In this document: in pieces, positions 18,532-51,242 of the stretch
Layout: every line of letters starts with the position of its first letter
How positions within the stretch are numbered: position 1 is the first letter of the stretch
Source: Streptomyces phytophilus
Lineage (GTDB): Bacteria > Actinomycetota > Actinomycetes > Streptomycetales > Streptomycetaceae
NCBI RefSeq assembly: GCF_013870535.1
Contig: NZ_JACBXC010000001.1
Location: forward strand, 1-51,482
DNA: 51,482 bases
Direction: 5' to 3'
Notes under the pieces: generated by a model
The model's input: only the letters and a program-made list of their open reading frames with translations
Database searches by the model: none
Told to the model about the DNA's origin: nothing
Made by a program: the position numbers and the translations under genes

Positions 18532-19116
18532 TCAGGAACCCGTGTACGCCGGCGTCTCCGGCACCCGGTCCGCGTGATAGACCGTGTTGCCGGCAGCGTC
18601 CGGATAGGCGGTGATCGTCCACTGGAAGCCCGCAACTTCGTCCTGCTTGTGCGTAACGTCCGAGCGTTCGGTGATCTCCCCCTCGGGGACGTAGAAGCCG
18701 CGGTCGATCTCGCCGTCCAGGACGACGAACCAGAACACCCGTCGGTCCGGCAGCGGGCTCGCGGTCTCCGCGAACGTCGTCAGCCCGCTCACCGGGGCGA
18801 GGTCGGCGATGTCCTTGCGGTACTGCAACGACTGCACGACGACCCGACCGGTTTCCCACGCGGTGATCGAGAACGTCCGCAGGCTCTGGGTGATGCTGGT
18901 GCGGATCGGCGACGTGTAGCCCCAGGGGGTATGGCTCTGACTGTCCTCGTCGAAGCCTTGCACGAGGCCGTCCTCGCTCAACGCGCCGATCGGCAGATAC
19001 GGGTCTTCCGGCTGTACCTCCGGGTCGCCGGGCGAGGCGGTGCCCAGCGGCGCCACCCACCCTCCGCCGTCTGCGCCGACCTCGATCAGGTCCGCCGCAC
19101 GGGTGATCTCAACCAT
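18532..19116 (-). CDS. Major tail protein (tail tube)
   Basis: 194 residues from ATG 19116, with GGGAGA four bases upstream. Motifs typical of actinophage tube proteins: GTASPGDPEVQPEDPYLPIG near the start, a WGYTSPIRTSITQSLRTFSI strand region, TGRVVVQSLQYRKDIADLAP, and PLPDRRVFWFVVLDGEIDRG with the terminal FQWTITAYPDA strand. It lies between the tail terminator and the tail assembly chaperones, which is the conserved position. Confidence 0.82.
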   Translation of the reverse strand: MVEITRAADLIEVGADGGGWVAPLGTASPGDPEVQPEDPYLPIGALSEDGLVQGFDEDSQSHTPWGYTSPIRTSITQSLRTFSITAWETGRVVVQSLQYRKDIADLAPVSGLTTFAETASPLPDRRVFWFVVLDGEIDRGFYVPEGEITERSDVTHKQDEVAGFQWTITAYPDAAGNTVYHADRVPETPAYTGS

Positions 19117-19191
19117 GGGGTCTCCCAACATGCGAAATCCCCGCGCGGCGGCGGGGGTCGGTGATTCAGGTCCGGCGCGGGCCCGAACCGG

Positions 19192-19934: not shown

Positions 19935-20297
19935 CTATCCCGTGACCCGGTCGGCGGCGAATTCGAGCGGGGCGCCAGTCCCGGTGAACGGGTTGCGGGC
20001 CCAGTCGCCCGGCTGGCCGGTGATCCCGCAGACCTCGCCGCGGATACGCACCTGGTCGGTCGTCTGCCAGTCCCTGCGCTGCGGGTCGTAGACGATGTAG
20101 CCGACGATGACCGTATCCCGGGCCTGCTGCAGCGTTCCGCCCGCGGACGGGGCCTCCGACCAGCCGGTCCGGGGAGCGACTACGCATCCCGGCATTTCCG
20201 TCTCGGTCAGCGGCCCCGGGATCGGCTGCCCCCGCGGATCCCGGCCCGGCGACGGCCCGCGGCGCAGCCGCACCACCGTCTCCCCGCGCCCGATCAC
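19935..20297 (-). CDS. Head-closure (stopper)-like protein
   Basis: 120 residues from ATG 20297, overlapping the upstream stop. A beta-rich protein (GETVVRLRRGPSPGRDPRGQ, GWSEAPSAGGTLQQARDTVI, DQVRIRGEVCGITGQPGDWA) with size, composition and position expected of siphophage head-closure proteins. No catalytic motif. Confidence 0.65.
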   Translation of the reverse strand: MIGRGETVVRLRRGPSPGRDPRGQPIPGPLTETEMPGCVVAPRTGWSEAPSAGGTLQQARDTVIVGYIVYDPQRRDWQTTDQVRIRGEVCGITGQPGDWARNPFTGTGAPLEFAADRVTG

Positions 20298-20917
20298 AGC
20301 GCCCGCACCTGCGTGGTGCCGGCGGTGCGCCGGTGGCCGCCCGCAGTGAGAAGCGCGCGGTCATCGCCCGTCATCGTCACCCCGATGCCCGACCCGGAGC
20401 CGTCCGTGCGGTACGAGTACGGGCCCATCGTCTCGCTGGTGACGCCACCCGCGGCGGTCGGCGCCGTCAGGGTCCGCGTCACCATGCGGCACACGACCGC
20501 CACCACATCCGCCGGCGGGGTCGCAGTCCCGTGGGAGTACGTCACCTGGTAGGTGTCCGGGCCGTGCGCCCTCCACCATGTGGGGGTGTCGTCGCCGGCC
20601 GGGGTTGCGCACATGAGGTCGACCTTGTCGCGTCCGTCCCACATCCAGCCCGACAGGGCGATGTCCGGCTCGCCATCGCGGCCGACGGCATGCACGCTCG
20701 CGACGGCCGTGACCGGGCGCTGCGGCAGCCGCACCACGGTACCGACAGGGTGCAACACGATCGCGTCGTCCGTCACGACGGAGAACTGCTGCCTCGTCCA
20801 GGCCCGCACCAGCGCGCTGGCGTCGTCGACGAGAGCGACCGCCCGCGCGGCCTCATCGGACGTCAGCGACCGCCCGAGGCGCGCTTCCAGGGAGGCGACT
20901 GTCGCGAGAGGCTCCAT
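20294..20917 (-). CDS. Head-tail connector (gp6/adaptor-like)
   Basis: 207 residues from ATG 20917, which has AGGTGG upstream. The start PLATVASLEARLGRSLTSDE, with AVALVDDASALVRAWTRQQF, is the typical adaptor pattern of two helices before a beta domain, followed by RPVTAVASVHAVGRDG and YQVTYSHG. It forms the ring below the portal. The gene overlaps the end of the glycosyltransferase gene by 65 bases. Confidence 0.75.
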   Translation of the reverse strand: MEPLATVASLEARLGRSLTSDEAARAVALVDDASALVRAWTRQQFSVVTDDAIVLHPVGTVVRLPQRPVTAVASVHAVGRDGEPDIALSGWMWDGRDKVDLMCATPAGDDTPTWWRAHGPDTYQVTYSHGTATPPADVVAVVCRMVTRTLTAPTAAGGVTSETMGPYSYRTDGSGSGIGVTMTGDDRALLTAGGHRRTAGTTQVRAL

Positions 20918-21578
20918 GACCCACCTCCATTTCGCCGACCAGCGCCGCCATGGCGTCAGGGGTGCGGGCCGCACGGCGGTACCGCTCGTACAGTGCCCGC
21001 CCGGCTACCGAGCCCCAGCGGGAGGAGTCCCTCGGCTGCGTCGGGTGCCACAGGTGCCACAGCGGCCAGGTGCCGCGCCACGGCAGGCCCGCGAGGGTGC
21101 GCAGCGCCAGCGCCCACGCTTCGTCCTCCTGGCCCCAGCCGGTGAACCGCGGATCCAGCGGCACCCGTTCATAGAGCGCGCGGGGCAGGACCGTGATGCC
21201 GCCGCCGGCGTACCCGGTGTACGGGGGGCGGGTCAGCGGACCCTCGGGGGCGCCGCCGGCCAACATGATGGCGGTGGCCGTTTTGCTCAGGCGCCGCACC
21301 TGCCCGTGCGGGACCGCCCACGGCGCACCGCCCCGGACTGCGGCGACCGCGGCCTCGACGCCGTCCGTCCACACGTCCGCGTCCGCGATGACCAGCAGTT
21401 CGCCCGAGACGCCGGGCAACGCAGCGGCGACCGCAGCGGCTTTGCACCACGGCCCGGCCGGAGGCTCGCCCAGCGCGGGCGCGTATCCGGCGGCCTGCCA
21501 CTGCTGCAGCACCCAGGTGAGCGCCGCCTCCCGGTGCGGGCAGCCGGCCCGCCATGGGACGACCACGGACACGGTCAT
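20853..21578 (-). CDS. GT-A glycosyltransferase in the capsid operon
   Basis: 241 residues from ATG 21578, in ATGA overlap with the upstream fusion gene; the longer frame to 21713 lies inside that gene. MTVSVVVPWRAGCPHREAAL opens a GT-A fold. The metal/nucleotide-sugar DxD is DAD at 66-68 (LLVIADADVW). The distal GWGQEDEAWALAL is the GWGxED-type acceptor-site motif of GT2/GT27-like enzymes, followed by a HLWHP metal-histidine segment. It should transfer a sugar from a nucleotide donor. Embedded between capsid and connector genes, it probably glycosylates a virion protein. Confidence 0.8.
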   Translation of the reverse strand: MTVSVVVPWRAGCPHREAALTWVLQQWQAAGYAPALGEPPAGPWCKAAAVAAALPGVSGELLVIADADVWTDGVEAAVAAVRGGAPWAVPHGQVRRLSKTATAIMLAGGAPEGPLTRPPYTGYAGGGITVLPRALYERVPLDPRFTGWGQEDEAWALALRTLAGLPWRGTWPLWHLWHPTQPRDSSRWGSVAGRALYERYRRAARTPDAMAALVGEMEVGHGASRDSRLPGSAPRAVADVR

Positions 21579-23620
21579 GGCCGGCACTTCGTGACCGCCC
21601 GGCGGCTCCCGGCGCCGGTGTGCACGAACACCCCGGGCACCAGCTGTGCGACCCCGCGCAGGCCAGCTCCGTGCGCACGTCCCTGCGCCTCCCCCTCCCC
21701 GCCTGCCGGCCACACAGCCGCAATGTCCGCGGCCCGGGTCAAGTTGGGGTTGGTCGTCAGGTGCGCTTCCGGCGCGAACCGCCAGCCGTCCCGGGCCTTC
21801 CAGCGCAGCCGGGCCTTGGTGCGCATGTGCCAGGCCAGCACCTGCTCGCTGTCGTGCCGCAGCCGCACCTGATACACCTCAGGCTGCTGGTTGAGGATGG
21901 TCCGGGCCGCGTCGAGCCAGCCGGGATGGTCCGCCAGGGCCCGCCAGTCGTCCTCCAGGTGCAGCCAGTACGGCCGCCCGGTTGCCGCCGCTGCGGCGGC
22001 GAGGTGGGAGGTGGCTTCACCGATCGCCGCGCGGTCCGGCAGGTTCTCGCGGACGTCGAGCACGTCGGCGTACTCGTCGAGAACGGCGCCGCTGTCGGGG
22101 TCGGCCCCGTTGTCCAGGGCGATGACGTGCGCGCTCTCCAGCAGCCCCGGTGAGCTCTCGCGGAGCGCGGCGAGGGTGTCGGCCAGCAGTTCGGGCCGGT
22201 CGCCGGTCAGTAGTGTGAGGACCACCTCGGAGGCATCCACCCGCCCGGGGGCCCGGGCGCGCACCAGCGCCATCGGCTTCCCATCGGTGGACAGATGCTC
22301 CACCACCGCGCCGGATCGCTCCCACGCGGTGAGCGCGGCACGCTCCCCCGGCCGGCCGGCGTCGTCGAGGAGCAGCACGGCGTCCGCGGCCAGATGCGGG
22401 GAGAGGTTCGCCAGCGCCGCGGCCCGGCCGCCGTCGCCTTCCGGCGGCCCGTCGACGAGGGCGAGGCCGATACCGTCGGGCAGTGCCGTGTCGTACCAGG
22501 GGCCGGCGGGCGTGCGGCGCAGAGGAGCGAGCCGCAGATCCACATACCCGGCCAGTCCCCGGCCGGCCAGCAGCTTCGCTGTGGCGTCCCGGTGGCGGCG
22601 CTGGTGCTCCAGGGAGATGACCGTGGCGCCGCGGTCGCGGGCGTACTCGGCCAGCAGCACCGTGGACGAACCCGAACCTGCCTCGACGACCAGCTGCGGG
22701 GAGTGCTCGGCGAGCAGTTTGGCGACCGCCTGTGCGCCCGGCTGGTCCAGCGCCCACCCGGACCACAGGCCCGCGTCCTCCACGGCCGGGGGCTCAGATG
22801 CCGCAGAGGGGGTGGTGTCGCCGTCGAGGAGCGCGACGAGCCGGCCGGCGTCGGCGGCCACGTGCTCGCGGTCCTCGGCGGACACCGCAGCGGTGAGGAC
22901 CGTGCGGACTGCGGCCTCGCCGTCGTCGGCGGCCTTCGTCATCGCCGGCCACGTCGAACGGAGCCGGGCGGTGGTCTCCTTCCGCAGCGGCGAGCGGACT
23001 CCGGTGGACGGCGCGTTCGTCAGTGAGCCGCGGCGCCGGTGCCGTTCGTACAGCGGATCGTCCAGCACCACGGCACGGCCCATCGCCAGCGCGGTCCCGG
23101 TCAGCATGGTGTCCCAGCCCACCCGGTAACCCGGGTGCGGACCGCCGAGCGCCGTCAGGAAGCTGGTGCGCCACAGGCCGGCCATGTGGGCGTGATGGCG
23201 GTAGGCGCCGTCCGCCCACGGCCGCACCTTCTCGGTGACTGTCTTCCCGTTGAGTTGGTGCACCGTCTGCGACGTCAGCACCACGTCCGCGCCGTCGACG
23301 GCGGCGAGCATGGTGGCCAGCCAGCCGGGTGCGGCCCGGTCGTCGGCGTCGTGGATTGTCCACCACTCGGTGCGGCACGCGGCGAGGGTCACGGCGTCGG
23401 CGAAGTACCGCCCCCGCTGGGCGGGAAGGTCCAGGCGCACCAGCCGCTCGTCGGTGATGTCGGCCAGCGCCGGCCACGGCGGCGCCGCGGTGTCGCCGTC
23501 GTTGACCACGACACACACCAGGTCGGTGTGCGTCTGGCCGAGGACCGCGTCCACGGCGCGCCGGACGGTGTCCGGGCAGCCGTGGTACGGCATGGAGACG
23601 GTAACGGTGGCCACAGGCAC
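21575..23620 (-). CDS. Tri-domain glycosyltransferase-methyltransferase-glycosyltransferase
   Basis: 681 residues from ATG 23620. Domain 1 (~1-230) is GT2: VTVSMPYHGCPDTVRRAVDA and the DxD-type WWTIHDADDRAAPGW (D91-D94). Domain 2 (~285-440) is a class I SAM methyltransferase: motif I VVEAGSGSSTVLLAEYA, the VISLEH acidic strand end, and LALVDGPP/AVLLLDDAG strands. Domain 3 (~455-650) is a second GT-A-like domain with VVLTLLTGDRPELLADTLAA and a YWLHLEDDWRAL DxD-like motif. It probably builds or methylates a short glycan. Located straight after the major capsid gene and ATGA-coupled to the next glycosyltransferase. Confidence 0.8.
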   Translation of the reverse strand: MPVATVTVSMPYHGCPDTVRRAVDAVLGQTHTDLVCVVVNDGDTAAPPWPALADITDERLVRLDLPAQRGRYFADAVTLAACRTEWWTIHDADDRAAPGWLATMLAAVDGADVVLTSQTVHQLNGKTVTEKVRPWADGAYRHHAHMAGLWRTSFLTALGGPHPGYRVGWDTMLTGTALAMGRAVVLDDPLYERHRRRGSLTNAPSTGVRSPLRKETTARLRSTWPAMTKAADDGEAAVRTVLTAAVSAEDREHVAADAGRLVALLDGDTTPSAASEPPAVEDAGLWSGWALDQPGAQAVAKLLAEHSPQLVVEAGSGSSTVLLAEYARDRGATVISLEHQRRHRDATAKLLAGRGLAGYVDLRLAPLRRTPAGPWYDTALPDGIGLALVDGPPEGDGGRAAALANLSPHLAADAVLLLDDAGRPGERAALTAWERSGAVVEHLSTDGKPMALVRARAPGRVDASEVVLTLLTGDRPELLADTLAALRESSPGLLESAHVIALDNGADPDSGAVLDEYADVLDVRENLPDRAAIGEATSHLAAAAAATGRPYWLHLEDDWRALADHPGWLDAARTILNQQPEVYQVRLRHDSEQVLAWHMRTKARLRWKARDGWRFAPEAHLTTNPNLTRAADIAAVWPAGGEGEAQGRAHGAGLRGVAQLVPGVFVHTGAGSRRAVTKCRP

Positions 23621-23683
23621 CTCCTGTGCATCGCAGACGGGGAAGGGGCGCGGCCCGCCGGCGGGGGGCGGGCCGCGCAGCGG

Positions 23684-24667
23684 TCAGGACCCGGCGCTGT
23701 CCGCGAGCCCGGTGATCTTGCCGTGGGCCTTCTGGTTGCCGTACTTCAGCCCGACCTCGCCGTAGATCTGGCTGCGCTCGGCCGCGCCGACCTTCGCCAG
23801 CGGCTCCACGAACAGGAACCCCTTGCCCGGGATGAGCAGGAACGCCGGGGCGCACTGCTCCAGCGACACGGCCGCGATGGTGTCCGTCGGCATGTACCGG
23901 TTGAGCATGACGTTGAGGCGGCCGAAGTCGGTCTCGATGGTCGACACCGAGACGCCGCCGACGCTCCGGGTCTGCTCCTGGTAGTTGTTATCCGTGATGA
24001 AGATCTTCGTGAGCCGGCGCTTCTGGTAGCCGTTGCACATCAGGGTCGCCGTGTCGGACTCCTGGATGCCGCCGTTCTCCCACGTCATCTGCAGGAGGTC
24101 GATGACGGTGTCGTCGTCGAGCTGAGCGCCGGCCGCGTCGATCGCGTTCGTGGTGATCGCCGGCAGCAGGCCCCGCGTCTTCCGCGGCGTGGAGTTGTTC
24201 GCCGGGTTCTGGAACGTGCCGCCGATGAACGTCTTCTCGATGTCGCGGGCGATCTGCACAAGGGCCTGGCGGATCTGCCAGTCGGCCTCATTCATCACCG
24301 GATTCGAGCCCTCGATGCCCACGCTGCCCGGGTGCGTCGAGCCCGTCGAGTTGAACTGCCCGGTGGCCGCCAGCTTGGTGTAGGAGACCTCGATGGCCTC
24401 CTGGTGGATCTCCACCACGTTCGTGACGTTGAACCGCGCGCGCTGCTCGGCGGTCGGCGCGTTGGCGCCTTCCAGCCGCTGCCGGTCGTCGGCGGCGTCC
24501 CGCAGGTCGTAGCCCTGCCACTGGAACAGGGTGGTGGCCGCGGCCTCGCCTCCCGTCAGCCCGCCGATCGCGGACAGGAACGGGGTGTCCTGCGGCGACT
24601 CCGCGAAGAGTTCCCCGACGTAGTTCGGCAGGTTGAACGTGGTCCCCTGCCCGGTGATCCCGGCCAT
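23684..24667 (-). CDS. Major capsid protein (SU10/DUF5309-type, HK97 fold)
   Basis: 327 residues. The N-terminal GQGTTFNLPNYVGELFAESP and the PFLSAIGGLTGG segment, then SYTKLAATGQFN and DWQIRQALVQIARDIEKTFI, are typical of the SU10-type capsid family. In this family the HK97 fold lacks a long cleaved delta domain. The C-terminal part contains IETDFGRLNVMLNRYMPTDT and FLFVEPLAKVGAAERSQIYG. It follows a scaffold gene, and the glycosylation genes come next. Confidence 0.88.
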   Translation of the reverse strand: MAGITGQGTTFNLPNYVGELFAESPQDTPFLSAIGGLTGGEAAATTLFQWQGYDLRDAADDRQRLEGANAPTAEQRARFNVTNVVEIHQEAIEVSYTKLAATGQFNSTGSTHPGSVGIEGSNPVMNEADWQIRQALVQIARDIEKTFIGGTFQNPANNSTPRKTRGLLPAITTNAIDAAGAQLDDDTVIDLLQMTWENGGIQESDTATLMCNGYQKRRLTKIFITDNNYQEQTRSVGGVSVSTIETDFGRLNVMLNRYMPTDTIAAVSLEQCAPAFLLIPGKGFLFVEPLAKVGAAERSQIYGEVGLKYGNQKAHGKITGLADSAGS

Positions 24668-42510: not shown

Positions 42511-43961
42511 TGGGGTCCTCGCAACACCTGATGGCTTATGCGGCCGTCAGTAGATCACGCAGGCGCTCGGCTGGGGTTCTCCAGCCGAGCGTTTTGCGTG
42601 GTCGGCCGTTGAGTTGCTGGGCGACGTGTTCGAGGTCTGCGGGACTGTGCGCGGACAGGTCGGTGCCTTTGGGGAAGTACTGCCGCAGCAGGCCGTTGGT
42701 GTTCTCGTTCGATCCGCGCTGCCAGGGTGAGTGCGGGTCGCAGAAGTAGACGGGGACTCCCGTGGCCACGGTGAACTGTTTGTGCGCGGCCATTTCGCAG
42801 CCCTGGTCCCAGGTCAGCGAGCCGCGCAGGTGCCCGGGCAGGGCCTGGATCAGGGGCACTAGGACGTCGCGGACCTCCTCGGCGGTGTGCCCGCCGGGCA
42901 GATGCCCGAGCATGACGTAGCGGGTGGAGCGCTCGACCAGGGTGACGATCGCGCTGTCGCTGCGGGGGCCGACGATCAAGTCGCCTTCCCAGTGGCCAGG
43001 CACCGCCCGGTCCTCGGCCTCGGCCGGGCGTTCGGAGATCATCACCATCTCGTCGACGAAACGGGACGTTCGCTGCTCCGCACTGCGGTGCGGCTTGCGG
43101 CGGGTGCGGCCGGTGCGCAGCGCCAGGGCGACCTCGCGACGCAGTCCGCCACGGGCCTGGACGTAGACCGCCTGGTAGATCGTCTCCGGACTCACGCGCA
43201 TGCTCTCATCGTCGGGGAACTCGATGAGCAGAGCGTGGCAGATCTGCTCGGGCGACCAGCGTTCCTGGAGCCTGGCCGCAACGAAGTCGCGCAACGCTCC
43301 TTCCCGGGCCAGCTTGGAGTCCTTGGGACGCGACCGGCTCTTCGCCCATGCCCGCTGGGCTTGGTGCGGCCGGTAGACGCCGTCGACCGCACGGGCGTCA
43401 ATCTCACGCTTGACGGTGGAAGCCGGCCGGCCGAGTGCCCGTCCGATCGCGCGCAGCGAGCGGCCCTCACGGCGCATGTCGGCGATCAGCTCCCGCTCGG
43501 CCACGGTGAGGAAACGGGGGTGCAGCCCGGCCTCGACCGCGGCAACGGACGGCTCCGACGCGCCGGCAACGATAGTGATCACACCGGTCGTATAGTCGAT
43601 CAGACGGCCGTCTGCATGCAGGCGCGAGTGGCCGATCTGCCGGATCCCTTGGTCCCAGTCCCGAGCGGTGCGCTCGTGGACGCCGACCTGCGCGGCGGCA
43701 CCGCGGCGATGGACTCCGGCCGCACGCAGCCGCTCGTACTCCGCCCGACCGGGATGCCCGGATGTGCCGGGCTTGCCGCGACCTCGGACACCAGCCTTCC
43801 GGGCCCATCCGAATGCCGTATTGCGGTTCACTCCCACTGCGCGAGCGGCAACAGTGATGCCACCGTCCTCCCGATCCAGCGCCTCGAAGAACCTCGCCTT
43901 CAGCACCTCAAAACCCACGATCCCCGCAACTCCCTAAACTCCAGGGTGTTGCGGGGATCAG
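42511..43961 (-). mobile_element. IS30-family insertion sequence
   Basis: Transposase flanked by imperfect inverted repeats with core TCCTCGCAACACC (42516-42528) and GGTGTTGCGGGGA (43945-43957). Exact outer ends and target duplication were not resolved. A 12-bp inverted repeat (43919-43930/43948-43959) lies between the right end and the transposase start. The IS sits between the Nudix-side genes and the 43997 cassette without visibly breaking a gene. Confidence 0.8.
42536..43918 (-). CDS. IS30-family transposase
   Basis: 460 residues from GTG 43918. N-terminal HTH domains (GITVAARAVGVNRNTAFGWA; SLRAIGRALGRPASTVKREI). DDE core: PGHWEGDLIVGPRSDSAIVT (first Asp), SLTWDQGCEMAAHKQF (second Asp), YFCDPHSPWQRGSNENTNGL (Glu), followed by LRQYFPKGTDL and LNGRPRKTLGWRTPAERL, all diagnostic of IS30. 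The frame is complete, so the IS may be active. Confidence 0.95.
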   Translation of the reverse strand: MGFEVLKARFFEALDREDGGITVAARAVGVNRNTAFGWARKAGVRGRGKPGTSGHPGRAEYERLRAAGVHRRGAAAQVGVHERTARDWDQGIRQIGHSRLHADGRLIDYTTGVITIVAGASEPSVAAVEAGLHPRFLTVAERELIADMRREGRSLRAIGRALGRPASTVKREIDARAVDGVYRPHQAQRAWAKSRSRPKDSKLAREGALRDFVAARLQERWSPEQICHALLIEFPDDESMRVSPETIYQAVYVQARGGLRREVALALRTGRTRRKPHRSAEQRTSRFVDEMVMISERPAEAEDRAVPGHWEGDLIVGPRSDSAIVTLVERSTRYVMLGHLPGGHTAEEVRDVLVPLIQALPGHLRGSLTWDQGCEMAAHKQFTVATGVPVYFCDPHSPWQRGSNENTNGLLRQYFPKGTDLSAHSPADLEHVAQQLNGRPRKTLGWRTPAERLRDLLTAA

Positions 43962-48306: not shown

Positions 48307-48698
48307 CGCGACACCCCCGGGTCGACCGCGGGGTGCGTGAACCGCACCGGCTTGCCCAGCGACCGGGCGTAGGCGATCTCCGCGCGGGTCGAGTCGCCCA
48401 CGTAATCCCCGACGACCAGCACCTCATCCGCCAGCCGGATCTTCGCCCGGTGCAGACGGTCCAACTCGACCTTCAGCCGCTCGGCGTCCACCGGATCCGC
48501 CCACAGCGCGTGCGGGGTCTTCATGTCGCAGCCCGGCTTGACGACGATCATTCCGGCCGCAGTCAACTGCCGGTCCATCTCCGCCATCGCATCCATGAAC
48601 CGGGTGGAGCCGCAGATCACCACGATCGTCGGCACGCACAGGTCACGCTTCGCCTCCGCCAGCTTCTCGCCTGGCGTCAGCAGCTTCGGGTAGCTCAT
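48303..48698 (-). CDS. Nucleoside 2-deoxyribosyltransferase-like protein
   Basis: 131 residues from ATG 48698. Rossmann-like: TIVVICGSTRFMDAMAEMDR, IVVKPGCDM, LHRAKIRLADEVLVVGDYVG and DSTRAEIAYARSLGKPVRF. The GSTRF and D-S-x-x-x-E-I-x-Y-A pattern is that of the nucleoside deoxyribosyltransferase/MazG-neighbour fold. It could cleave or transfer nucleoside bases. Neighbouring Nudix and DUF4326 proteins suggest a nucleotide-related module. Confidence 0.65.
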   Translation of the reverse strand: MSYPKLLTPGEKLAEAKRDLCVPTIVVICGSTRFMDAMAEMDRQLTAAGMIVVKPGCDMKTPHALWADPVDAERLKVELDRLHRAKIRLADEVLVVGDYVGDSTRAEIAYARSLGKPVRFTHPAVDPGVSR

Positions 48699-49234
48699 CA
48701 GGATTCCTCCGAGGTCGTAGCGAGCAGATCGATCAGCCGGAGGTCACCAGGGCTCACGGCGACAGCGCCCAGGACGGCGAGCCACTGCACCCACACGGGC
48801 TCGACACCGGGGCGGGCCGTGAACTCGGATGCAGCGACCCGGCCGTGGGCGTGGGCGAGAGTGCGCTCCGCGAGCGCCTGAAGGTCCGACGCCGGGATCC
48901 AGCGGACATTGCGGGTTTCACGGACACTCGGCGACAGGCTGCCGATCACCGACGCCCGGAAGACCGTCCAGTCGTGGCCGACGCCACGGGCGCCGGGCTG
49001 CCTGCGGCAGCGGTTGGGCCGCCACCAGCCGGTGACGTGGGTGAGCCGCTCGACGGTGAGGCCGAGTTCCTCCTCGGTCTCGGCACGGGCTGCGTCCTCG
49101 GCGGTGCCGTGGCCGTCGATGTGCCCGGCGCAGGGGGCGATGCCCGGCGGAAACGTGGCGCGGTCGAACATCAGGTAGTCGCCTGCGGCGTTGGTGATGA
49201 CGACGCCGACGGACAAGTTGTCGCAGACCTTCAC
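48698..49234 (-). CDS. Nudix hydrolase with degenerate box
   Basis: 178 residues from GTG 49234, with AAGGAGA upstream; the longer frame to 49285 has no site. VGVVITNAAGDYLMFDRATF, then a Nudix box GHIDGHGTAEDAARAETEEE in which the conserved Glu after GX5 is Gly and the RE Arg is Ala, but the EExGL catalytic end is kept. A VRETRNVRWIPASDLQALAE segment follows. Activity may be reduced. The gap 49235-49337 has only a 13-codon frame coupled to this GTG. Confidence 0.7.
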   Translation of the reverse strand: MKVCDNLSVGVVITNAAGDYLMFDRATFPPGIAPCAGHIDGHGTAEDAARAETEEELGLTVERLTHVTGWWRPNRCRRQPGARGVGHDWTVFRASVIGSLSPSVRETRNVRWIPASDLQALAERTLAHAHGRVAASEFTARPGVEPVWVQWLAVLGAVAVSPGDLRLIDLLATTSEES

Positions 49235-49337
49235 GACCGGCTCTCCTTCAAGGGCGGGATGATCTTGGTCATGTGCTGCTCCCATCGCGGGTTGAGGTTC
49301 CGTGCGGCACCGTTGCCGCGGGTCAGGTGCGGGGCGG

Positions 49338-49966: not shown

Positions 49967-50274
49967 GTCGTCTCCTGGGCTTCGGTTTCGCGGGCCGGGT
50001 GGACGGCGCCCTGCGGCAGCGGGCGGCCGTCGAGGTGGCATTCGACGCCGGGCTCGACCTGGCACAGCGGGCAGCACGCCACACCGCGCACCCACGCGGA
50101 GATCCGCGCCGGATGCGGCAGCGGCAACTGCCGCTGGTTGGTCTTCATCACGCACGGCCGGTGCTCCGCAGCCGCACACCACGGGCAGGCGACCGCGCGG
50201 GCCGGATGCTGGCCGGCGCGCAGCAGGTGGCGGAGGCTGTCGGGCATCGGGGTCGAGTAGCGATGGCGGGTCAT
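49963..50274 (-). CDS. Double zinc-finger protein
   Basis: 103 residues from ATG 50274. Two Cys/His clusters: CPWCAAAEHRPCVMK and CCPLCQVEPGVECHLD. Its ATG overlaps the stop of the PAS-sensor gene (ATGA), so it should be translated with it. It is the first element-type gene at the right edge. Nucleic-acid binding likely. Confidence 0.6.
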   Translation of the reverse strand: MTRHRYSTPMPDSLRHLLRAGQHPARAVACPWCAAAEHRPCVMKTNQRQLPLPHPARISAWVRGVACCPLCQVEPGVECHLDGRPLPQGAVHPARETEAQETT

Positions 50275-51242
50275 GTCGTGGCCTCCTCGCGGGCGGCGCG
50301 TTCGGCGAGCTTGCGGGCGAACACCTGACGGCGGTGCTCGATCTCCTCGGGCGAGTCGGGTTCGACGGCCTGACCGCGGGCGGCGGAGGTCGCGTCGAAG
50401 ATCTGCGCGCGCAGGCTCGTGGCCTGCTGCGGGGCCCGGTGCAGATCGAAGATGGCGTTCCGCAACTCCTGGATGGTGGCGTCGAGTTCGGCGACGACGC
50501 CCTCGATACGGGCGGTCGCCCGGCCGTGGTCGAGGAGGGGGGTGACGCCCTGGAGGGTCAGCCCGGCGGCGAAGACGCGCTGGATGACCATGTCGTGCAG
50601 GTCGCGGGCGATGCGCTCGCGGTCGGCCATCACCTCCCGCTCGGCGCGGGCGGCGGCCAGCTCGGACTGCAGCGCCAGGCGGCGGCCGATGTCCTGGCCC
50701 ACGATGGAGTAGCCGATGACGGCGCCGTCGGCGTCCCGCATCGCGGAGACGGTGACGGAGACGTCGACGAGGCCGCCGTCGGCGCGGCGCCAGCGGGTCT
50801 CCACCGGCTCGGCGTGCTGCCCCGAGCCCGTACGGGCCAGCGCGTCCTCGAACGCCGGGCGCGCACCGTCGGGGAGGAGTTCGTCGACGGAGGTGCCCAC
50901 CCTCGCGTCGGGGTCGCGGCCGAGGAGGTGCGCGGCGGCGGGATTCCAGGTCTGGATCACGCGCTGGGGGCTGATGGAGATCATGGCGTCGCCGGAGGAC
51001 GTGACCACGGCGGCGAGCCGGGCGGCGGCGCCGCGCGCCGCCTCCAGTTCGGCGTGCAGGGCGATCAGGCCCTGGTCCGCGTCGCTCAGTTCGTGGCTCA
51101 GCTCGGTTATCTGGCGTCTGCCGTCGGCCAGTTCGGCCTCCCGCAGCCGCAGCAGTTCCGCCGCCTCGGCGAGCGTACGCGGTGGCTGCGCGCTGTTCAC
51201 GTCGCCTCTCCCGGGCCCGTCGTGGTCGTCACCCCTCATCAC
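50271..51242 (-). CDS. PAS/HisKA-type sensor protein lacking an ATPase domain
   Basis: 323 residues from ATG 51242. A coiled-coil (~20-70) precedes a PAS domain (~75-195: DAMISISPQRVIQTWNPAAA, HLLGRDPDARVGTSVDELLP). Then a HisKA_3-like dimerisation helix with the phospho-His in RERIARDLHDMVIQRVF. The HATPase domain that should follow is absent. The last ~33 residues (EPDSPEEIEHRRQVFARKLA and on) look unlike a kinase and read into the element gene by ATGA. I infer a truncated host gene fused to element sequence near 50372-50400. Confidence 0.65.
   Translation of the reverse strand: MMRGDDHDGPGRGDVNSAQPPRTLAEAAELLRLREAELADGRRQITELSHELSDADQGLIALHAELEAARGAAARLAAVVTSSGDAMISISPQRVIQTWNPAAAHLLGRDPDARVGTSVDELLPDGARPAFEDALARTGSGQHAEPVETRWRRADGGLVDVSVTVSAMRDADGAVIGYSIVGQDIGRRLALQSELAAARAEREVMADRERIARDLHDMVIQRVFAAGLTLQGVTPLLDHGRATARIEGVVAELDATIQELRNAIFDLHRAPQQATSLRAQIFDATSAARGQAVEPDSPEEIEHRRQVFARKLAERAAREEATT

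Follow-up and report, generated by a model that had tools for sequence, protein, structure and literature searches.

Organization of the locus

The window, meaning the whole 51,482-nucleotide stretch of DNA that was analysed, contains two adjacent genes named FUS and GT3. FUS encodes a fusion of a GT2 glycosyltransferase (GT) domain, a methyltransferase domain and a presumed second GT domain, and the start of GT3, a separate GT, lies inside the FUS stop in an ATGA overlap. The gene for the major capsid protein (MCP) is upstream of the pair and that for a head-tail adaptor downstream, giving the order MCP, FUS, GT3, adaptor. The DNA carrying these genes is probably a prophage of a Streptomyces-like bacterium. 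The features, including the major tail (tube) protein (MTP), are as follows.

23684..24667, minus strand: MCP (SU10-type), predicted acceptor from the association tests; SU10_MCP, PF17236, E 2.8e-94 in the Pfam scan of window proteins; ends ...GLADSAGS
23684..23692, minus strand: predicted MCP acceptor tag, last codons Gly-Ser plus stop; site inferred from association only
23621..23683, minus strand: MCP-FUS intergenic stretch with a 12-bp GC-rich hairpin (z -1.53) and the FUS Shine-Dalgarno
21575..23620, minus strand: FUS; GT2 domain (residues 3-235), Methyltransf_24 (about 288-440) and LEDD-type, presumed GT, domain (about 462-665); from Pfam, relatives, AF2 and motifs
20853..21578, minus strand: GT3, GT-A glycosyltransferase, GT7C/beta4GalT-like, Che8 gp109 family, 241 aa; from PHROG, AF2, fold and profile
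20294..20974, minus strand: head-tail adaptor Ad1, the gene after GT3 and flank of the module; phrog_442, E 1.1e-28
18532..19131, minus strand: MTP, predicted second acceptor; PF25681, E 2.5e-12, and phrog_117, E 5.8e-35; ends ...PAYTGS
18532..18540, minus strand: predicted MTP acceptor tag, last codons Gly-Ser plus stop; inferred

Strong hairpins of different sequence were seen at the same place in the MCP-FUS gap of five relatives looked at. The initial annotation, made without database searches, had described a GT2-methyltransferase-GT fusion and a separate GT, ATGA-coupled between the major capsid and connector genes. This held by Pfam, PHROG, motifs and gene order, with the third domain a presumed GT. 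It had also called for structural models and for a search for the same architecture beside other capsid genes. The whole FUS chain and GT3 were modelled and matched GT folds, and the search gave 14 near-full-length FUS loci, the capsid-FUS-GT3-adaptor order being kept in five named relatives (L001, L019, L020, L025 and L026).

The FUS fusion protein

FUS comprises 679 to 681 residues, depending on the start. The 681 residues initially annotated hold as a reading frame, but the first GTG overlaps the Shine-Dalgarno AGGAGG and the starts of relatives align with the next GTG at 23614, which is therefore the likelier start and gives 679 residues. Residues 8-129 matched Pfam Glycos_transf_2 (E 2.4e-14, 54.1 bits against a cut-off of 23.3) and residues 312-420 matched Methyltransf_24 (PF13578; E 5.5e-10, 40.5 bits against 26.3), while the Pfam scan gave no match for residues about 462-665. 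All 13 aligned sequences, the window included, retained WLHLEDDW in this third domain, and likewise the GT2 DxD (as HDADD, HDSDD or LDSDD) and the SAM motif ExG[SG]GxS. The expected catalytic motifs are kept in FUS and GT3. That the third domain is a GT is inferred from the motif, the fold match of the whole chain and the first reading of the sequence; the domain was not modelled alone.

The AF2 model of the whole chain had a mean pLDDT of 88.6 and a pTM of 0.48. Foldseek placed Pasteurella heparosan synthase 2 and E. coli K4 chondroitin polymerase at ranks 1-7 and 16. Like FUS these polymerases have two GT domains per chain, but whole-chain superposition was poor (rmsd about 27-30). These polymerases are not known to carry a methyltransferase between the domains, and their product is a free polysaccharide. 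The FUS fold also matched SpsA, TarP and TarS. A search of solved-structure sequences gave merely five chains at E 0.67-0.71, and tblastn against annotated phages gave no match at E 1e-5.

Matches covering almost all of FUS came from 14 viral-contig loci, so the fusion is more than a chance event. These loci are not all independent, as at least L021 and L024 share an identical sequence, and one (L018) is apparently identical to a Streptomyces genome contig (L001, Streptomyces sp. SBT349), whose FUS has 70% identity to that of the window. In L023 and L027 FUS has an extra N-terminus and follows tail-fibre-like genes, with no GT3 on the short available stretch. Because the fusion is split into two overlapping genes in L028-L031, and in 72 of 83 distinct GT3 loci the available stretch does not contain every FUS domain, a fused gene is one arrangement among several and is dispensable. 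This corrects the initial suggestion that the glycan is made by a single polypeptide.

The partner glycosyltransferase GT3

GT3 contains the motifs DAD and GWGQED, the latter confirming the GWGxED motif of the initial annotation. It matched PHROG 1721 'galactosyl transferase' (E 3.8e-9), fell below the cut-off for Pfam Glyco_transf_7C (PF02709; 18.1 against 23 bits) and had no match among solved-structure sequences. The AF2 model (pLDDT 89.0, pTM 0.85) superposed on 1tvy, of the GT7 beta4-galactosyltransferases, with a Z of 15.2 and an rmsd of 2.7 over 179 aligned residues. The fold is not specific for GT7, because other GT-A enzymes match as well (heparosan synthase 2, Z 16.7; GalNAc-T2, Z 14.1).

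A GT3 profile rebuilt without Che8 matched gp109 of phage Che8 over nearly its full length (86 bits, E 2.9e-26), and GT3 belongs to the Che8 gp109 family. Single-sequence tblastn with GT3 reached seven Streptomyces phages of 184-200 kb, and Che8 gp109 as query reached 176 records. Membership of the wide GT3 family is less strict than that of the initial ten-sequence set; among its 92 distinct members, 70 have the DxD[LVI]-type motif, 66 the xED-type and 84 the HxWH-type, the motifs being given as we wrote them.

C-terminal serine on capsid and tail tube proteins

Where GT3 is present, MCP and MTP tend to end in serine, usually preceded by a small residue; this is shown as an association. On contigs with GT3 the final residue was Ser in 52 of 53 distinct MCPs, which fall into four sequence families, and in 48 of 50 distinct MTPs, and the ending was a small residue plus Ser in 49 MCPs and 43 MTPs. 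On the same contigs a final Ser was found in terminase 0/28, portal 1/30, protease 2/31, scaffold 0/32 and neck 0/7, and in 114 of 1047 other open reading frames (ORFs), these being the longest non-overlapping ORFs of at least 130 aa and not called genes. The structural-gene tally left out the tape measure protein. Adaptor (7/39) and head closure (9/34) proteins ended in Ser somewhat more often than the other ORFs. The last Ser codons were TCC (54), AGC (30), TCG (15) and TCA (1); an origin of the final Ser as a by-product of ATGA overlaps (TCA-TGA) was rejected, since TCA made up only one of the 100.

The ending was also compared between loci with and without GT3. A final Ser was present in 13 of 13 SU10-type MCPs with GT3 against 7 of 36 without (Fisher 3e-7), in 32/32 against 3/17 MTPs (1e-9), and in 21/21 against 3/51 members of the MCPc family. 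The tag followed GT3 in six independent MCPc pairs (median p 0.031, range to 0.0625). In one family the terminus -GADAA becomes -GADAAGS with GT3, and L265 differs by just the added -GS. MCP relatives with no detected GT had a final Ser in 13 of 93 cases, among them prophi91-3 (...LTGS). When loci were fetched by MCP alone, 28 of 31 MTPs ended in Ser with GT3 or a GT4-type enzyme against 1 of 6 without (p 7e-4); two of the 31 came from contigs already in the earlier sample. The tree-controlled test on starred branches was underpowered for SU10 MCPs (4 pairs, median p 0.125, small residue plus Ser) and MTPs (3 pairs, 0.25).

The scans kept the best 80 of 143, 332 and 438 relatives. Loci without GT3 or GT4 and with less than 6 kb downstream of MCP were left out as short, which dropped 37 distinct MCPs, 16 of them ending in Ser, and one MTP from the MCP-fetched test. 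ORFs below the length limits were also dropped, and identical sequences were collapsed, near-identical ones not. The MCP family counts exclude the window fragments L034 and L036 and also L037-L039 (duplicates of L059-L061). Absence of a GT means that none was found on the available stretch, and some of these assignments may be wrong because the Che8 GTs lie far from the capsid genes; Che8 was set by hand to GT3-positive in the MCP family counts and the MCPc pair test.

The MCPb family at first resembled a counter-example, as its final Ser is near-universal whatever the GT (GT3 10/13, GT4 40/41, neither 3/6), and its ending is therefore uninformative by itself. A GT4-type enzyme often adjoins the capsid gene in this family. 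These genes were found near some of the capsids post hoc, and the GT4 test uses a profile built from five of them. The MCPb capsids favour a rival explanation in which -GS acts as an assembly signal in certain capsid types, has no link to glycosylation and merely co-occurs with GT genes. The occurrence of tags on both MCP and MTP in several sequence families, and their repeated appearance in MCPc, in GT3-positive members of clades that mostly lack the tag, make this very unlikely.

GT3-positive MCPs without a final Ser were L322, L330 (...GSA), L316 (...ASV), L031 (...PTV) and that of Baka (...APSF). Among the MTPs there were two ending in Thr; L316 ends in ...TLT. The annotated putative major tail protein of Gordonia phage GMA2, which has a GT3-family gene, ends in ...REVIR, and the L320 MCP and the L333 and L309 MTPs lack a final Ser although GT4 is present. 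Firecracker, Brujita, Tesla and Cornie, which have GT3-family genes, have Ser at the end of both MCP and MTP, whereas the proteins annotated as capsid decoration in Tesla and Cornie have a different last residue. In Bobi and DeadP the tags persist although little more than a fragment of gp109 is left; both phages have other annotated GTs.

Such exceptions bear on the possibility that MCP and MTP are glycosylated at another residue, with the final Ser acting in recognition or docking, or with the glycan placed on a nearby Ser or Thr. The evidence is association only, without site mapping, some GT3-positive proteins end one residue past Ser or in Thr, and many tails contain several Ser or Thr. 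Against this, the last residue itself is invariant in the SU10 and MCPc sets with GT3, L265 shows only -GS added, and Mycobacterium phage glycans are reported at C-termini. Glycosylation at a different residue is thus considered unlikely.

Comparison with known systems

The gp108-gp109-gp110 genes of Che8 form a virion glycosylation system (Freeman et al. 2023). Che8 is among the phages with glycosylated virion proteins in the literature, gp110 is reported essential, and Mycobacterium phage glycans are described at the C-termini of capsid and tail tube; the only phages named with glycosylated virion proteins in the relevant passages were Che8, Corndog, Myrna and Rita. Che8 resembles the window in that gp108 is a GT2 and Methyltransf_24 fusion (PF00535 and PF13578), as in FUS, that gp109 is a GT3-family enzyme, and that MCP and MTP end in ...KTGS and ...SDGS (...SAGS and ...YTGS in the window). 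It differs in that the three genes lie at the genome end, outside the capsid operon, gp108 has no fused second GT domain, and gp110 is a GT25-type enzyme whose relation to the LEDD domain is not shown.

A profile of the FUS methyltransferase failed to match gp108. The LEDD domain has a motif in common with gp110, with an hhalign probability of 1.2% from a drifted alignment: the first third-domain profile, when iterated, drifted into GT2-type domains, and the derived profile matched the FUS GT2 at 114 bits. Homology of the third domain to gp110, gp108 and four Firecracker and Baka proteins (hhalign 1-17% with the drifted alignment) is not claimed.

GTs and methyltransferases between capsid and connector had already been described in cluster J mycobacteriophages in 2013, which amends the initial annotation. 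That cluster has a two-GT protein (Omega gp16), a methyltransferase-GT protein (LittleE gp17) and, between capsid and head-tail connector, Baka gp13-gp20, of which gp16 belongs to the GT3 family. Unlike the window, no single-chain GT-methyltransferase-GT appears in the relevant section of the 2013 paper, and the Baka MCP has no final Ser. Firecracker (genus Corndogvirus) has an O-methyltransferase, the GT3-family gp35 and another GT beside its capsid genes (gp33-gp36), with MCP ending ...LVGS and MTP ...KGDS, but as separate genes located upstream of the protease. Its gp33 resembles the methyltransferase half of Che8 gp108 (54%). No paper on C-terminal serine with phage GTs, or on the Che8 C-terminus together with the tail tube, was found in the literature searched, which did not cover the full text of Freeman et al. 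2023.

Proposed function

FUS and GT3 probably constitute a virion-glycosylation module that O-glycosylates the C-terminal Ser of MCP and MTP through a fused methylating assembly line, although no chemistry was measured. In this model the two genes would be expressed late and act during assembly; expression with the virion, as initially annotated, is an inference. The targets would be MCP and MTP, the two most abundant virion proteins, and a short O-methylated glycan would be built on the last Ser of each (...DSAGS and ...YTGS), the inferred attachment site. Each GT domain may add one sugar, the Methyltransf_24 domain would methylate a sugar hydroxyl, and the fusion may keep the steps together. 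The first sugar-serine bond may be made by GT3 or, by analogy with Che8 gp110, by the LEDD domain; the two are not decided between. The initial proposal of virion glycosylation is supported by the link of GT3 to the gp109 family, the C-terminal Ser association and published glycans, and a methylated or elongated glycan remains the best reading, gp108 being itself a GT2 and Methyltransf_24 fusion, although no glycan was measured in this analysis.

Prophage gtr genes are known to modify host surface glycan, and the GTs could instead alter host cell-wall glycan for superinfection exclusion or receptor masking. The SpsA, TarP and TarS fold matches and the prophage-like context fit this explanation, and the 2013 cluster J paper left viral and host targets open. 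It is nevertheless very improbable, as the module sits within the capsid operon and host modification does not predict a terminal Ser that tracks the enzyme on two bulk virion proteins in several families. Glycosylation of the phage genome, which some phage GTs can modify according to the literature, can be all but excluded: no pyrimidine hydroxymethylase or similar base-modifying enzyme was present among the window proteins scanned (many small ORFs were not covered), and the capsid-operon placement and C-terminal tags also speak against it.

A bolder reading of the virion-glycosylation model is that a terminal small residue plus Ser forms a portable acceptor site for O-glycans on virions, gained by unrelated capsid and tail-tube proteins with capsid-linked GTs of at least two unrelated kinds (the GT-A GT3 and the GT-B GT4). 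In that case the final two residues of capsid and tail-tube proteins would be enough to predict virion glycosylation, which would be common among soil phages. The balance of evidence tips only slightly towards this view. The GT-methyltransferase-GT chain resembles a compact glycan assembly line whose parts are revealed by its split relatives, and is of relevance to glycobiology and the recognition of phage particles. The tag points to a system testable in Streptomyces and suggests a simple sequence test for sugar-bearing phages; if the reading is true, it would predict the glycosylated phages, the two proteins concerned and the modified residue.

Organization of the glycosyltransferase locus

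The window is a complete contig (C1, 51.5 kb) from a draft assembly that totals 6.9 Mb over 1772 contigs. A structural operon of siphovirus-like type lies on the minus strand and runs from terminase, portal, protease, scaffold and the major capsid protein (MCP) through FUS and GT3 to the head-tail adaptor, connectors, the tail-tube protein (MTP) and the tape measure; the following features are considered here:

23684-24667, minus strand: MCP, SU10-type
23621-23683, minus strand: strong GC-rich hairpin in the MCP-FUS gap (shuffle z-score only -1.53)
21575-23620, minus strand: FUS, GT2-methyltransferase-GT fusion
20853-21578, minus strand: GT3, 241 aa, GT7C-like
18532-19131, minus strand: MTP

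The initial annotation of a 681-residue fusion between the MCP and connector genes, coupled through ATGA to a separate glycosyltransferase, held: FUS contains GT2 and Methyltransf_24 domains followed by a third that Pfam does not name, and GT3 starts within the FUS stop. The Shine-Dalgarno sequence AGGAGG includes the first GTG of FUS, so that the start is probably 23614, giving 679 residues. A strong GC-rich hairpin of differing sequence occupied the MCP-FUS gap in 6/6 loci examined (the window and related loci L001, L020, L025, L026 and L071), shuffles being run for the window only, and could conceivably lower enzyme output relative to capsid.

Other features of the contig were:

35015-37033, minus strand, outside the structural genes: member of a PHROG family without assigned function (E 3.4e-89) that also resembles FtsK/SpoIIIE (E 2.9e-12)
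42536-43918, minus strand: transposase with rve integrase core and HTH domains
48698-49285 and 50271-51242, minus strand, contig end: NUDIX and PAS-histidine kinase genes

The last two genes are host-like, and this end may therefore be chromosomal.

Conserved motifs and predicted structures

Across 13 aligned sequences covering each FUS domain, the window included, the GT2 DxD (HDADD, HDSDD or LDSDD), the SAM motif ExG[SG]GxS with the [VI]DGP and LDD/VDD motifs, and WLHLEDDW of the third domain were all kept; the loop VVVNDGD was variable. Such residues are catalytic or metal-binding in these families. Although inferred from sequence alone, this conservation argues against dead enzymes, which the initial annotation had named as a refutation of virion glycosylation.

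The AlphaFold2 and Foldseek analyses it had proposed matched both proteins to glycosyltransferase folds. For GT3 (pLDDT 89.0, pTM 0.85) human GalNAc-T2 ranked first (E 8.5e-6), followed by mycobacterial glucosyl-3-phosphoglycerate synthase and beta4GalT7; VIA-align gave Z 16.7 against heparosan synthase 2 and Z 15.2 against beta4GalT1. The FUS model had a pLDDT of 88.6 but a pTM of 0.48, so the single domains are good and their relative placement is not. Its best matches, obtained with the whole chain and never with the third domain alone, were heparosan synthase 2 and SpsA. Among viral models, Pas34 of Actinoplanes phage phiAsp2 ranked third and a 391 aa Che8 glycosyltransferase eighth, which we take from its length to be gp108, the GT2-methyltransferase fusion of Che8.

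Distribution of FUS and GT3

Viral contigs contained 16 FUS loci, 14 matching over nearly the full length (39-70% identity of the best segment). The genome scan gave one close full-length match, in Streptomyces sp. SBT349 (L001; 70%), on a contig that appears identical to that of viral locus L018, and a further 16 weak matches, all to the third domain. Among 392 genomes of the window's genus, full FUS occurred only in the genome that holds the window, and one other matched residues 3-270 at 35%. The proposed search for the three-domain architecture beside other capsid genes was successful, the order capsid-FUS-GT3-adaptor being kept in L001, L019, L020, L025 and L026; in L001 the module adjoins an MCP without a tblastn link to that of the window. 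In L028, L029, L030 and L031 the GT2 domain is encoded separately, by a gene whose end touches or overlaps the beginning of a methyltransferase-GT gene. Longer FUS proteins of 1034 and 1018 residues (L023 6930-10034; L027 3171-6227), with an extra N-terminal region of untested class, follow genes that by eye resemble tail-fibre and baseplate genes, and GT3 was absent from the approximately 1 kb available past them; their target may be the tail fibre.

All three FUS domains were found in 11 of 83 distinct GT3 loci (the window and five stretches from annotated phages among them), the third domain only in 11 and none in 61, within the sequence available. GT3 is therefore the common component and the fusion an add-on.

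A C-terminal serine accompanies GT3

Inspection of structural protein ends revealed that in several phages with FUS both MCP and MTP finish in -GS, though the L001 MCP is unlinked by sequence to that of the window. This tag, a terminal Ser mostly after a small residue, is a predicted O-glycan acceptor. It was examined in families gathered by profile, blind to protein ends, among loci retrieved with FUS, MCP or GT3 as query. On GT3-positive contigs, distinct MCPs ended in Ser in 13/13 (SU10), 15/15 (MCPb), 19/19 (MCPc) and 5/6 (MCPe) cases, and MTPs of four groups in 32/32, 12/12, 1/1 and 3/5, the two exceptions ending in Thr. A small residue preceded the Ser in 49/53 MCPs and 43/50 MTPs. Controls from the same loci ended in Ser in 0/28 (terminase), 1/30 (portal), 2/31 (protease), 0/32 (scaffold), 7/39 (adaptor), 9/34 (head closure), 0/7 (neck) and 114/1047 (other ORFs). 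Five of the 25 minus-strand ORFs listed within 1545-30308 of the window end in Ser, only MCP and MTP in Gly-Ser.

In the SU10, MTP and MCPc sets, relatives without a detected GT3 were mostly untagged. SU10-type MCPs ended in Ser in 13/13 GT3-positive vs 7/36 GT3-negative cases (Fisher 3e-7), with a small residue before it in 12/13 vs 2/36, and MTPs in 32/32 vs 3/17 (1e-9). Among the best 80 loci fetched by MCP alone for each of MCPc and MCPb, the MCPc values were 21/21 vs 3/51. In a quick MCPc tree omitting the last 15 residues, the tag went in the same direction as GT3 in on average 5.9 of six independent pairs (median p 0.031, range to 0.0625), the GT3-positive tips L265, L175, L139/L182, L147/L165 and L136 being nested in mostly untagged clades. 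The L265 MCP ends GADAAGS and its neighbour L274, like many others, GADAA, exactly -GS having been added. The SU10 and MTP trees gave only 4 and 3 starred pairs, too few for significance, with almost none in the opposite direction.

Published phages

The MCP and MTP end, respectively, in KTGS and SDGS in Che8, LVGS and KGDS in Firecracker, ETAS and EAGS in Brujita, PQGS and FGGS in Tesla, and PEGS and GDGS in Cornie; the decoration proteins encoded by Tesla and Cornie have other endings. Gordonia phage GMA2 has TGS on three structural-region proteins and REVIR on the annotated putative major tail protein, and the Baka MTP ends VGLS, yet its MCP APSF. Four controls without an annotated glycosyltransferase in the ~20-22 kb inspected (Bernal13, Mendokysei, Doucette, BigBern1) were untagged on MCP and, except Bernal13 (TES), on MTP. 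Prophi91-3 (L189) is a true exception: its MCP (20042-21019) ends LTGS and its MTP VTA, with no annotated glycosyltransferase in the entire record.

Bobi and DeadP retain the tags alongside other annotated glycosyltransferases, including close homologues (88-90%) of the GT25-type Che8 gp110, while tblastn detects only a 36-38 residue remnant of the GT3-family gp109; for this reason the glycan in Che8 may be started by an enzyme of the gp110 kind rather than of the gp109 kind. Bobi gp102 gave a weak GT7C match.

Candidate alternative enzymes

Most MCPb capsids ended in Ser irrespective of GT3 (10/13 with, 22/25 without). When 10 ORFs neighbouring the MCPs of six MCPb loci were scanned against Pfam, 5/10 proved to be GT4-type (GT-B) glycosyltransferases, unrelated to GT3, lying after MCPs of this largely Ser-ending family:

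L289 10881-13613: GT4-type, two genes
L292 12238-13611: GT4-type
L325 10965-11963: GT4-type
L342 10955-11965: GT4-type

The ORFs picked in L284 and L302 had no Pfam match. GT4 may have taken over the function of GT3 without being homologous to it. With a profile built from these five genes, MCPb Ser endings were 40/41 with GT4, 10/13 with GT3 and 3/6 with neither; no GT3-negative SU10 or MCPc row matched within 9 kb. Within MCPb no association of tag and enzyme can be demonstrated; across families the data fit one. Pooled over SU10, MCPb and MCPc, MCPs ended in Ser in 44/47 (GT3), 40/41 (GT4) and 13/93 (none) cases, the p values (5e-21 and 1e-21) being descriptive only as families and relatedness are mixed. 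MTP ends, used in no definition, were Ser in 28/31 MCPc/MCPb loci fetched by MCP alone with either enzyme vs 1/6 without (p 7e-4); the 31 include two previously seen contigs (L282, L352) and several near-identical GT4 rows.

Three further GT3-less phages with Ser-ending capsids have candidate enzymes. Nebkiss, whose MCP and MTP both end -GS, carries a coupled pair that is tentatively a third kind of virion glycosylation module:

L188 7828-9179: Nebkiss gp166 (Stealth_CR2, below cut-off) and gp167 (Methyltransf_24)

L090 has a glycerophosphotransferase-like match (below cut-off) and a methyltransferase, and L080 (MCP ending EES) Methyltransf_24 only.

Proposed mechanism

Virion-protein glycosylation in mycobacteriophages, cited in the initial annotation, is indeed described: glycans were seen at the C-termini of capsid and tail tube subunits alike (PMC12619734), and glycosylated proteins were detected in Che8, Corndog and Myrna, gp110 of Che8 and gp38 of Corndog being essential (PMC12363180). 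Freeman et al. 2023 reportedly found O-linked glycans at the C-terminus, in agreement with the tag reading. Cluster J phages have 8-10 genes inserted in the capsid-connector gap, including glycosyltransferases and methyltransferases such as Omega gp16 (two GT domains) and LittleE gp17 (methyltransferase and GT), and whether their targets are viral or host was left as a question (PMC3706429).

The expectation that the enzymes are expressed with the virion, and that one polypeptide makes a methylated or elongated glycan, held for gene order and domains; expression and glycan remain inferred, and the genes are split in L028-L031. The mechanism is likewise an inference, gene order and domains alone having been observed. 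Late transcription would yield MCP first, then the enzymes, then connector and tail, and the hairpin may cut read-through into the enzyme genes. The enzymes would act on the C-terminal end of freshly made MCP and MTP, one glycosyltransferase placing the first sugar on the terminal Ser, the others lengthening the glycan and the methyltransferase domain capping or modifying a sugar. The fusion would hold extension and methylation together.
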